Shown piece after piece: positions 58,137 through 61,599 of a stretch of DNA of 64,000 nt. The position numbers and the translations under genes are program-made. Source of the DNA: Planctomycetaceae bacterium (GTDB taxonomy: Bacteria > Planctomycetota > Planctomycetia > Pirellulales > Pirellulaceae); contig PBNZ01000029.1 of NCBI GenBank assembly GCA_002723275.1, positions 62,001-126,000 of the forward strand, in the 5' to 3' direction. The notes beneath the pieces are model-generated. The model worked only from the letters and a program-made list of their open reading frames with translations. It had not been told where the DNA came from and did no database searches. Position 1 is the first letter of the stretch. The number at the start of each line of letters is the position of its first letter.

Positions 58137-60236
58137 ATGGCGAAGGCAAAGGTCGCGGATATTCGAAACGTAGCATTTTGTGGTCACGGTTCCGCCGGAA
58201 AGACCACCCTCGTTGACAAGATCTTGATTAAGACTGGCACCGCCAGCGGCCAGCCCAGCGTTGACGACGGCACGAGTATCTGCGACTTCGATGCAGAAGA
58301 AAAGTCTCACCAATACACGGTTGAAGCATCCGTCGTACACTTCGACCATGGTGGCAAGTCGTATCACGCCATCGACACCCCCGGTTACCCCGAATTTATT
58401 GGACAAACGATTGGGGCCTTGCAGGGCGTCGATAACGCGGCCATTGTGATCAACGCTCAGTCGGGGATCGAAGTCAATACGCGACGCGTCTTCGATGAGG
58501 CTGGCAAGGCAGGCCTTGGACGCGTCATCGTGATCAACAAGCTGGACGGAGACAACATTGACTTCCCGGCCTTGCTCGCGAGCATTCAAGAGTTGTGGGG
58601 AACCAAGTGTGCCCTACTCACGGTTCCAGTAGGTGTCGGCGCCGACTTCAAAGGTGTCGTCAATACGCTAAAGCCTGCGGGAGACACAAGCGGTGCGGTG
58701 ATGGATCCCGAGGAAATTCGGGAGCCGCTTGTTGAATCGATCATTGAAGTTGATGAAGAAGTAATGGAACGATACTTCGAAGGCACTCAGCCGACGGATG
58801 CAGAACTCTCCCGTCTGATCGTTAAAGCGGTTGCTGAGGGTTCTTTGGTACCCGTTCTTTGCTGTTCTGGCAAATCAGACATTGGTGTGGATGAAATGCT
58901 GGACGCGATCAACATGTGCTGTCTCTCACCTGCAGATATCACACGTGTCGGTAACAAGGATGGCAACGAGGTTGAGATTGGCAGCGACGCCGGCGGCGAA
59001 CTTGTCGCTCAAGTCTTTAAGACCCGCATCGACCCGTTTGTCCAGAAGCTGAGCTTTATTCGTGTTTTCAGTGGAACGCTCAAGAAAGATTCGAATGTCC
59101 CCGCATCCTCAGCGCGTAAGGGGGTCAAACTCGGCCAACTACTGAAGGTTCAAGCATCGGAGACATCTCCGGTGGACGATGCTGGTCCGGGTGAAATCGT
59201 CGCCATTGCGAAGATGGAAGAGCTTCACACAGGTACCAGCATTGGTGAAGTGACACTGCCCAAAATTCCATTCCCAACTCCCATGGTTGGTTTGGCAGTC
59301 AGCCCGAAGAGTCGTGGTGACGAGACCAAGCTTTCCGGCGCACTCAACAAGGTCGTGGAAGAAGATCCAACCTTCCGTCTGGATCGTGACGCACAGACGA
59401 AAGAGTTGGTCATGACTGGAATGAGCGAGCTACATTTATCGGTCATTCAAGAGCGACTCGTACGGCGCGACAAGCTGGAAGTCGATACCAAAGAACCTAA
59501 GATTCCCTATCGCGAGACGATTCAAGCCGACTCGGATGGTAGCTACCGTCACAAGAAGCAATCCGGTGGACGCGGTCAGTTCGGCGAGGTCCACATTCGT
59601 ATGTGGCCGCTGCCACGTGACGTGAATCTGGAGGAATACGTTACCAAGGGACGTTTCCCTCAGCTGAAGGAATACCACTACAACGAGAACAACAACTTCC
59701 TTTGGGTGGACTCCGTCGTCGGCGGTGTTATCCCGGGTAACTTCATGCCGGCCATCGCCAAAGGTTTCAATGAGCGAATGGACCGCGGCGTTATCGCTGG
59801 CTACAACGTGCAAGACGTTTGTGTCGAAGTCCACTTCGGAAAGCATCACCCCGTCGATAGTTCCGAAACGGCCTTCAAGATGGCCGCATCGATGGCCTTC
59901 CGAAATGTCTTCCAGCAGTCAAAACCGAGTCTTCTGGAACCGGTCGTTAAGTTAGCCATCACCGTTCCCGAGGACAACGTCGGTGATGTCTACAGTGACA
60001 TGTCGGGCCGTCGTGGAAGAGTGCTTGGAAGTGATTCGGCTGGTGGAAATCTCCAAACCGTGCATGCCGAAGCGCCACTCGCTGAGGTAACGACCTACGC
60101 TCGCAGCCTATCCAGCATGACGGGAGGGCAGGGGAGTTACGCGATGGAATTCAGCCACTACGATGTCGTGCCTCCCAACGTGCAACAAGAGATTTTGGCC
60201 AAGGCCAAGATGGAAGAAGAAGAAGAAGAAGAGTAG
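58137..60236 (+). CDS. fusA2: EF-G-like translation factor GTPase (second-copy type)
   Basis: 699 residues. G1 is Gly-His-Gly-Ser-Ala-Gly-Lys-Thr-Thr near 16-24, G3 is Asp-Thr-Pro-Gly-Tyr near 83 and G4 is Asn-Lys-Leu-Asp near 129. Domains II to V of the elongation factor G fold follow, with Gly-Met-Ser-Glu-Leu-His-Leu in domain III and a Gly-Arg-Arg-Gly-Arg-Val-Leu-Gly loop in domain V. The switch I region lacks the Arg-Gly-Ile-Thr-Ile motif of canonical EF-G and reads Asp-Phe-Asp-Ala-Glu-Glu-Lys instead. It thus belongs to the fusA2-type group. The last residues are a run of Glu. Role: translocation- or recycling-related, not proven. GGAAAAAGGA lies upstream. Confidence 0.9.
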   Translation: MAKAKVADIRNVAFCGHGSAGKTTLVDKILIKTGTASGQPSVDDGTSICDFDAEEKSHQYTVEASVVHFDHGGKSYHAIDTPGYPEFIGQTIGALQGVDNAAIVINAQSGIEVNTRRVFDEAGKAGLGRVIVINKLDGDNIDFPALLASIQELWGTKCALLTVPVGVGADFKGVVNTLKPAGDTSGAVMDPEEIREPLVESIIEVDEEVMERYFEGTQPTDAELSRLIVKAVAEGSLVPVLCCSGKSDIGVDEMLDAINMCCLSPADITRVGNKDGNEVEIGSDAGGELVAQVFKTRIDPFVQKLSFIRVFSGTLKKDSNVPASSARKGVKLGQLLKVQASETSPVDDAGPGEIVAIAKMEELHTGTSIGEVTLPKIPFPTPMVGLAVSPKSRGDETKLSGALNKVVEEDPTFRLDRDAQTKELVMTGMSELHLSVIQERLVRRDKLEVDTKEPKIPYRETIQADSDGSYRHKKQSGGRGQFGEVHIRMWPLPRDVNLEEYVTKGRFPQLKEYHYNENNNFLWVDSVVGGVIPGNFMPAIAKGFNERMDRGVIAGYNVQDVCVEVHFGKHHPVDSSETAFKMAASMAFRNVFQQSKPSLLEPVVKLAITVPEDNVGDVYSDMSGRRGRVLGSDSAGGNLQTVHAEAPLAEVTTYARSLSSMTGGQGSYAMEFSHYDVVPPNVQQEILAKAKMEEEEEEE

Positions 60237-60274: not shown

Positions 60275-60296
60275 CGAGCCGCCACAGGGCGGCTCG
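60275..60296 (+). terminator. Perfect 9-bp hairpin after the EF-G-like gene
   Basis: CGAGCCGCC pairs with GGCGGCTCG around an ACAG loop, 38 nt past the stop codon. It is very GC-rich and stable. No T run follows, so it may stabilise the 3' end or work with other factors rather than as a standard terminator. Confidence 0.45.
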
Positions 60297-60388
60297 TGAT
60301 AGCAGTCGACAGCCAAACGTCCCGTTTTTGCTGGAGACCGCTTCGAAATCTGTCCGAAGACAATGATGGACGCTTGCCTTACAGGTGT

Positions 60389-60527
60389 TGGGGGTCTAGC
60401 ATTGTCCGCAGAGGAATTTCTCCCTGGGCCGAGAGTCACTGTGATGAATCATCATCTGAATCCCAGCATCGATCTGTGTCTCTGTAGCTGTCCGGCCATT
60501 GTGTCGGACAGCAAAATCTAGCCCCCA
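60389..60527 (+). ncRNA. Candidate multi-stem structured RNA upstream of cysE
   Basis: A long-range closing stem pairs TGGGGG and CTAG (60389-60399, one bulged T) with CTAG and CCCCCA (60518-60527), 10 bp. Inside are CTGGG/CCCAG (60424 and 60462) enclosing GATGA/TCATC with an ATCA loop, and CTGTCCG/CGGACAG (60488-60494 and 60505-60511). Together they make a closed junction of about 139 nt. It occupies the 394-nt gap between the EF-G-like gene and cysE, which has no other gene. I do not recognise a known riboswitch class. A promoter-like TTGCGT...TATTTT (60569-60595) lies between it and cysE, so it may not be part of that mRNA. Confidence 0.45.
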
Positions 60528-60630
60528 TCCCGCCGATCCCTCCATCGCACTGAATCGCCAGCGTCTTATTGCGTTTTTGTTTCGGAGCGTATTTTCCTAA
60601 ACGCGCTTGAATTCCTGAAAGGAGAGCAGC

Positions 60631-61599
60631 ATGGCCTCCGACTTTCGCCTCAAAGAGCAACTTCCGAATCTAACCAACGAAGTTGTGCGCACCTACACCG
60701 AGATCGGTACGATCAATCACTTGGGACACTTCCCCTTACCCAGTTACGCAGTGATCACTTCGGCCATCGAGGACCTTCGGGAAATCATCTATCCTGGCTA
60801 CCATCGTCGTGAGCGGCTTCATCTGGGAAATATTTCCTACCATGTTGGCGATCTCATCGACGGCCTGCATGACAAACTGACGATGCAAATTGCTCGCGCC
60901 CTGCATCATGAAGAGCGTTTGCAGAGCAATGCGGAACCAAGCGAAGACAAGTATGACTTCGAAGCCAAGGGACAGTCGATGGCGATCATGTTTCTGGAAT
61001 CACTCCCAAGGTTGCGAAAACTCCTAGCCACCGATGTACAAGCCGCATTCGAGGGTGATCCAGCTTGCCGTAGCCGAGACGAAGTGATCTTTTGCTATCC
61101 AGGGCTCCAGGCGATCACCGTCTTTCGGATGGCGCATGAATTGCATCGTCTAGGCGTACCCTTCATTCCACGCATGATGACCGAATGGGCTCATAAAGAA
61201 ACGGGCATCGACATTCATCCGGGAGCACAAGTCGGTGAATATTTCTTTATTGATCATGGCACCGGTGTCGTGATCGGCGAGACCTGTGAAATTGGCGACT
61301 ACGTTAAACTCTATCAGGGCGTAACTCTCGGAGCTCTTAGTTTCGATACCGATGCCGATGGAAATATTGTTCGAGGCACGAAACGACACCCAACCATCGG
61401 AGATCGCGTTGTCGTTTACGCAAACGCAACGGTCTTAGGTGGAAAGACCCACATTGGAAATGATTCGGTGATTGGTTCGAGTGTCTGGCTGACTCATAGC
61501 GTCGATCCGCACACCACTGTGCTCCTCGAAAAACCCAGCCTCAGAATGCGTGCGGATCACCCCGATGAATTAGATGCTTCCTCCAACTATCGCATTTAA
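60631..61599 (+). CDS. cysE: Serine O-acetyltransferase
   Basis: 322 residues, longer than the 270-residue enterobacterial form and similar to the SrpH/EpsC-like type. It makes O-acetylserine from serine and acetyl-CoA for cysteine synthesis. The N-terminal ~180 residues are helical. The C-terminal left-handed beta helix has hexapeptide repeats beginning [10 protein letters not shown] near 190. The catalytic His is in [13 protein letters not shown]. A [10 protein letters not shown] loop follows. AAAGGAG precedes the ATG by 6 nt. Feedback inhibition by cysteine is usual for the family. Confidence 0.94.

Follow-up and report, generated by a model that had tools for sequence, protein, structure and literature searches.

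A folded stretch upstream of a planctomycete cysE-like gene looks like a cysteine leader with a tiny Cys-rich peptide and a hairpin

Main finding

We analyzed a stretch of Planctomycetaceae DNA of 64,000 nucleotides (hereafter, the window), in which a folded segment upstream of a cysE-like gene looks like the leader of a cysteine-synthesis gene, with a tiny Cys-rich peptide and a hairpin, and not like a new riboswitch. From comparison of the sequence with its relatives, we consider it highly probable that the cysE-like gene is governed by cysteine leader-peptide attenuation, whatever the effector; the best reading is that attenuation would act by cysteinyl-tRNA supply. Leader-peptide attenuation is already known in kind, and this would be a planctomycete version with a hairpin at the leader stop. 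A cysteine leader of this sort, with its codons, promoter, and hairpin, is readable across many genera of the family and, beyond the order, in two genomes or more, and planctomycetes could use it to sense cysteine shortage via the ribosome. A hairpin that holds the stop codon in its loop and has no alternative partner is a minimal layout that can be tested directly, and it bears on the cooperation of leader translation and Rho outside model bacteria. Sequence comparison shows five things, namely an ORF bearing Cys codons, a hairpin, a recurrent promoter layout, an association with cysE, and an excess of C over G in the spacer, and we set these out before turning to the effector.

The cysE-like locus

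The leader occupies the gap downstream of an EF-G gene at 58137-60236 (NF009381, 769.5 bits, above the cut-off), and its features are collected in Table 1. The product of 60631-61599 scored 167 bits with TIGR01172 against a cut-off of 210.65, i.e., below the curated cysE threshold. It also fell below the EpsC cut-off (146.9 vs. 150 bits), and the match begins at residue 133, with a long N-terminal part outside the match. Across the family, cysE was found in 221 of 241 genomes at E <= 1e-60, and the CysE of a same-genus relative (locus L012 of genome G001) is 90% identical to that of the window. At 60276-60295, downstream of the EF-G gene, there is a GC-rich hairpin, GAGCCGCC-ACAG-GGCGGCTC, without a U-run, which is perhaps the terminator of that gene.

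Table 1. Features of the predicted cysteine leader and its cysE-like gene, in window coordinates
Feature	Positions	Strand	Basis
CCGAAGA element, 13 nt upstream of the -35 box; may be an activator site or part of the promoter	60354-60360	+	Recurrent layout
-35 box TTGCCT	60374-60379	+	Comparison with leader loci and same-genus relative
-10 box TAGCAT; predicted transcription start about 60408-60410	60397-60402	+	Comparison
Predicted leader ORF, 25 codons plus stop, MNHHLNPSIDLCLCSCPAIVSDSKI	60444-60521	+	ATG at 60444, TAG ending at 60521
Putative regulatory Cys codons, TGT at 60477, 60483, and 60489 (C-x-C-x-C)	60477-60491	+	Cys positions across leaders
Hairpin, 10 pairs, 6-nt loop; 5′ arm holds the last Cys codon	60487-60512	+	Folding and counterparts in relatives
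Spacer to cysE, C-rich/G-poor mainly in its first part; candidate Rho-loading region; GGAG near the end	60522-60630	+	Composition
cysE-like serine O-acetyltransferase, presumed controlled gene	60631-61599	+	TIGR01172, E 3.4e-49

A Cys-rich leader ORF upstream of cysE

The ORF at 60444-60521 has two hallmarks of a leader-peptide attenuator, being a short ORF rich in one amino acid and standing before a gene that makes this amino acid, with the caveat that the window protein lies below the TIGR01172 cut-off. Other leader peptides upstream of cysE read MTRHSSAAATCICRCPA, MCPASHRFCCRCCCLS, and MKNRPNRCLCICPV, each up to its stop codon. Altogether, 62 Cys-rich leaders upstream of cysE were curated, 41 of them kept by eye from 110 upstream regions and 21 taken from model matches (see below), and many end in C-x-C-P-[AGV]-stop with the stop inside a hairpin loop. 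The 110 regions were drawn from the listed places in the 221 cysE-bearing family genomes, those nearest to the window first, with short-flank places among those skipped; the filters behind the choice by eye required a start codon and Cys codons. The 69 regions without a curated leader, many from Rhodopirellula-like genomes, include four in which a leader may be present, L032, L082, L094 (the same place as L170), and L113 (the place of the G004 model match).

An automatic filter detected a Cys-rich leader ORF in 46 of the 110 regions, compared with 8 when the 110 were reverse-complemented and, in 20 shuffling rounds, 6.85 on average and 13 at most; this filter admits a number of false positives, and it passes over the window because the Cys codons there are slightly too distant from the stop. 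Since the leaders were selected partly on Cys content and start codon, there is some circularity in the figures for codons, frame, and ATG: an in-frame ATG lies 14-31 codons upstream of the stop in 62 of 62 curated leaders, TGY triplets number 243, 40, and 13 by frame, and Cys occupies codons -3, -5, and -7 in 52, 48, and 40, respectively, of 57 leaders (five of the 62, with extended or shifted tails, being excluded), TGT and TGC both being used.

An earlier note on this DNA had proposed a cis element before cysE tied to cysteine, and the leader comparison supports this proposal. The Cys-rich leader ORF, which in relatives accompanies the last hairpin of the fold, was absent from that note. 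In the same-genus relative L012, we saw by eye a 14-codon ORF with one Cys, with no Cys cluster and no hairpin, and the leader model finds no match there at E <= 1; apparently, this relative has lost its leader or let it wear down while the promoter was kept.

A promoter recognized by comparison

A consensus promoter and terminator scan of the window reported nothing, and the promoter was recognized by comparison, with the layout CCGAAGA-N13-TTGCCT-N17-TAGCAT at 60354-60402. Within 130 nt upstream of the leader ATG, TTGnnn-N16-18-TAnnnT was present at 44 of 61 leader loci (one of the 62 was dropped from this count) vs. 3.2 expected from shuffles, and the promoter spacer was 17 nt in 35 of these 44. 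The longer layout CGAAGA-N12-14-TTGnnn-N16-18-TAnnnT occurred at 18 of 62 leader loci, the window included, vs. 1 of the 69 loci without a curated leader. The predicted distance from the -10 box to the leader ATG is 41 nt in the window and 17-102 nt across the 44 loci. The promoter hexamers are kept in the same-genus relative as TTGCCC-N17-TAGCAT.

The closed fold

A closed multi-stem RNA had been read into positions 60389-60527. The stems themselves are present: this 139-nt span folds at -54.3 kcal/mol (z -3.71), with 0 of 200 shuffles equally good, and the closing stem TGGGGGTCTAG/CTAGCCCCCA is there as sequence, with a duplex of -16.9 kcal/mol. However, the 5′ arm of the closing stem (60389-60398) overlaps the promoter spacer and the -10 box. 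Because this arm lies within the promoter, before the start site predicted from sequence, the closed form is unlikely to be made from the 60374-60402 promoter. The span expected in the transcript, 60405-60521, gave a z of -2.32, with 7 of 200 shuffles as good, and an extension into cysE (60405-60660) gave -0.92, with 33 of 200 as good. The closing stem also fails under the refuting condition set by the earlier note, since the same-genus relative keeps the genes but not the stem, its best equivalent reaching -4.8 kcal/mol vs. -16.9 in the window. Among the stems of the earlier note, the last hairpin (60487-60512) does have counterparts in relatives, whereas the other stems have none.

At the gathering score, no Rfam family was found in the window or in eight relative loci, in line with the suggestion that the element falls outside known families, and a search at a permissive threshold returned six matches, none with an E better than 1.4. 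When the fold was used as a DNA query, it yielded, in its own genome, the site itself plus chance-level matches and no second copy and, between the two genomes of the genus, nothing at the other genome's locus. When 241 family genomes were searched with 60300-60640, short scattered matches only were found outside the own genome. These negative DNA searches thus give no indication that the fold is repetitive, has a mobile copy, or is an RNA whose primary sequence is conserved. Metabolite sensing or a small RNA, the functions suggested for the fold, did not find support. A metabolite-binding riboswitch or small RNA with the closed fold could draw on the z of -3.71 for the 139-nt span, and we nevertheless hold it to be barely credible, given the closing arm inside the promoter, the closing stem missing from the same-genus relative, the lack of any Rfam match, and the lack of a homologous stretch in the DNA search of the 241 family genomes.

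A hairpin at the leader stop

The stop codon of the window leader begins 7 nt after the hairpin, whereas most type-A relatives have theirs within the loop. Twenty-seven leaders fit a main register, chosen for six pairs, in which the loop contains the stop codon; all 27 share the 5′ arm GTCCGG and 26 of 27 the 3′ arm CCGGAC, the 27 including leaders found by a model that scores this very sequence. With shuffling of the 3′ side as the control, 39 of 42 type-A leaders had a stop-anchored stem significant at 0.05, as did 7 of the 20 others. The window does not pass (p 1.0) because the stop codon of its leader is outside the hairpin. In the genomes that we labeled g9, significant stems have other arms (TGTTGTTGT/ACGACAACG, GTTGCT/AGCAAC, GTTGCTG/CAGCAAC, and TGTCG/CGACA) while the peptides are nearly the same, and in four other g9 leaders (L070, L072, L078, and L080) the stem was not significant; these differing arms point, though not strongly, to RNA structure. 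A Cys run without a significant hairpin was seen in four g8 leaders (L020, L022, L037, and L061), of which L022 is the place of L204, from Blastopirellula marina DSM 3645.

Identity of the arms in 27 of 27 and 26 of 27 leaders, model-found ones among them, goes beyond what pairing needs and would suit an inverted repeat bound by a protein. The conserved thing could also be a small functional Cys-rich peptide, since CxCxCP of the leader peptides resembles metal-binding motifs. That either of these, and not an attenuator, accounts for the conservation is in our view highly improbable. Against this reading, little is shared outside the Cys codons, with 50 different last-8 tails in 57 leaders; the arms that make up the stop-anchored stem differ in other relatives; and the best 26 places found by the leader model all stand before cysE.

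Spread of the leader

The 45-nt covariance model, comprising the Cys codons and a 7-bp hairpin, was built from 15 leaders. Alignment A1 had 22 rows, of which seven were omitted from A2 because MAFFT left their hairpins out of register, and L035 is imperfectly placed in A2; Infernal was run with its stricter filters whenever a search covered more than 40 genomes. In 239 family genomes, the best 26 places (E <= 4.1e-4) were all upstream of cysE, on the same strand and within ~330 nt. Fifteen of them were in the model and 11 were not (G058, G197, G198, G201, G219, G220, G240, G063, G054, G053, and G075), with G063, G054, and G053 having already been seen by eye before the model search. Weaker places were inspected in part: the next four family places fetched (L171-L174) had no cysE alongside, and some weaker ones (G004, G055, G046, and G080) do adjoin cysE.

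A search of the class (397 genomes) placed 17 of its 20 best matches (E <= 4.7e-4) before cysE. Outside the family, 16 places scored best, and all but G257, G494, and G490 (hence 13) were before cysE. The place in G525 spans 752-798, with cysE at 907, and G365 and G504, whose class-search places stand before cysE, belong to the same class and a different order. Weaker class-search places (L191-L200) had no cysE alongside. Among 80 named loci, not all of them planctomycete, the model reached E < 0.01 in 13, each before a cysE match, and the named Rhodopirellula, Rubripirellula, and Stieleria loci gave no match at this threshold. The distribution of the leader element is patchy. In its own genome, the window site was the best model place, but with an E of 0.476 (0.911 for the next place), a match that would not convince if taken alone.

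How the leader may act

We propose that transcription from the promoter at 60374-60402 would produce a leader 5′ of the cysE-like gene, which would encode the 25-codon peptide and whose Cys codons would run into the hairpin. When cysteinyl-tRNA is scarce, the leading ribosome would stall on the Cys codons and hold the hairpin open; the stalled ribosome would mask the start of the C-rich spacer, and RNA polymerase would reach cysE. When cysteine is plentiful, the ribosome would complete the leader and depart, the hairpin would close, and Rho would load on the spacer and terminate transcription upstream of cysE. Translation of the leader, stalling, the direction of control, and the role of Rho are what we infer from the layout, and the weakest step is how stalling at the Cys codons would prevent Rho from loading.

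The candidate Rho-loading region was assessed by its composition. Taken per 40 nt, the difference between C and G is largest (0.28-0.38) across 60503-60562, and a Shine-Dalgarno (SD)-like GGAG lies close to the 3′ end of the spacer. C exceeds G in the spacers of 58 of 62 leader loci (median C/G 1.64) and in 41 of 69 orthologues without a curated leader (median 1.10), the p value of 9.5e-12 ignoring relatedness and comparing a variable span with a fixed one. Upstream of the leader at the same loci, C exceeds G in 29 of 62 (median C/G 1.0), and the spacers fold like shuffles (mean z -0.13). By composition, the leader is followed by the C-rich, G-poor, weakly structured stretch expected of a Rho attenuator, which suggests Rho as the factor involved. 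The gene rho is present in the own genome (648 bits, above the TIGR00767 cut-off). This genome holds two Rho homologues (G000:C30:312668-313915 and G000:C35:95103-96200), the second at 470 bits, below the cut-off.

With the same cysteine leader peptide, the effector might instead be intrinsic termination at the leader hairpin, prevented by a ribosome on the Cys codons. We regard this as unlikely. U-runs do follow some hairpins, e.g., those of L035 and L177, and terminator-like sites between the leader stop and cysE were present at 13 of 62 loci vs. 4.5 expected from shuffles, an excess that is biased upward because the shuffles destroy the hairpin. Yet a U-rich tail (>=5 T in 8, counted without a shuffle control) follows only 7 of 48 hairpins, the terminator scan gave no terminator-like site in the window, and, where the stop codon is part of the hairpin, the ribosome terminating there would sit on the hairpin. 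An alternative pairing was also sought, and the 3′ arm of the hairpin pairs downstream no better than shuffles (mean z +0.58, 48 hairpins). A classical trp-type attenuator was rejected on the absence of an exclusive pairing with a terminator and on the same U-rich tail count, with none in the window.

A second alternative retains the cysteine leader peptide and has RNA pairing hide the ribosome-binding site of cysE unless a ribosome stalls on the Cys codons; we judge it decidedly unlikely. For the Cys segments, pairing is stronger with the cysE start region of the same species (-12.06) than when start regions are taken from other species (-11.17, sd 0.25), but shuffled Cys segments pair equally well (-12.30, sd 0.26). 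No masked SD was found over the 62 leaders, in which SD accessibility was unchanged by ribosome position (0.422 free and 0.417, 0.425, and 0.412 with the ribosome placed), and in the window masking lowers SD accessibility, from 0.239 to 0.120-0.187.

Since intrinsic termination, SD masking, and downstream pairing of the hairpin arm are not generally supported, we favor Rho-coupled attenuation. Provided that the leader is an attenuator, the sequence comparisons give Rho a chance of being its effector that we would place just short of even. A bolder reading, which we hold to be less likely than not, is that Planctomycetia have a cysteine attenuator that is coupled to Rho and made of one hairpin: a near-invariant GTCCGG-nnTRA-CCGGAC stem-loop, built on the last Cys codon, would enclose the leader stop in its loop, and opening of this hairpin by the ribosome would be the whole switch, without alternative pairing.

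Relation to known systems

In the trp-type attenuators of Escherichia coli, the regulatory codons lie in the 5′ arm of the first (1:2) hairpin, and the leader stop is near its loop. The leader described here likewise has putative regulatory codons in the 5′ arm and a stop near the loop, but its 3′ arm is without a partner, and no general terminator hairpin was found. In E. coli tnaC, the ribosome is retained at the end of the leader, next to a region where Rho loads, TnaC being an arrest peptide that senses tryptophan. We propose a similar arrangement, although, unlike in tnaC, repeated Cys codons and little other conservation point here to tRNA supply. Mycobacterial polycysteine uORFs, the subject of Canestrari et al. 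2020, reportedly have a leaderless start, with the ATG at the 5′ end. By contrast, the predicted 5′ UTR in the window is about 34 nt, and the leader ORF is thus not leaderless.

Canestrari et al. 2020 is cited in PMC13236596, and the tnaC leader is named in PMC1262725. The latter describes Cys leader peptides upstream of cys operons in Mycobacterium and Propionibacterium acnes and upstream of cbs in Bifidobacterium longum, reporting no conserved hairpins for them and suggesting Rho. Like these actinobacterial leaders, ours have clustered Cys codons near the stop of a short ORF before a cysteine-synthesis gene, no general intrinsic terminator, and a pyrimidine-rich region that suggests Rho; unlike them, ours have a hairpin that spans or follows the leader stop, the codons are often C-x-C-x-C, the gene is cysE, and the group is Planctomycetia.

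The uORFC-8-2 motif upstream of cysS in Rhodobacterales, for which ribosome-mediated attenuation has been proposed (PMC8632094), resembles our leader in that the conserved Cys codons of its uORF lie within or close to a stem. It differs in its gene, cysS, its two tandem Cys codons, and its consensus, which ends in a U-run terminator. Membership of the window leader in uORFC-8-2 was rejected because its gene is cysE-like and the scan gave no terminator. Leader genes in Planctomycetes are counted among others in PMC4833913, with cysteine absent from the occurrences listed, and the open-licence literature searched yielded no description of a leader-peptide attenuator in Planctomycetes.

A box pair before the promoter

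Upstream of the promoter, a TAAACT-like box and CGAAGA stand ~30 nt apart, resembling an inverted repeat CTTCG/CGAAG. This pair was found at 17 of 62 leader loci, at 2 of the 69 loci without a curated leader, and in 0 shuffles. Elsewhere in the own genome, it is nearly absent (1 match; control, 4), and we consider it a candidate activator site.
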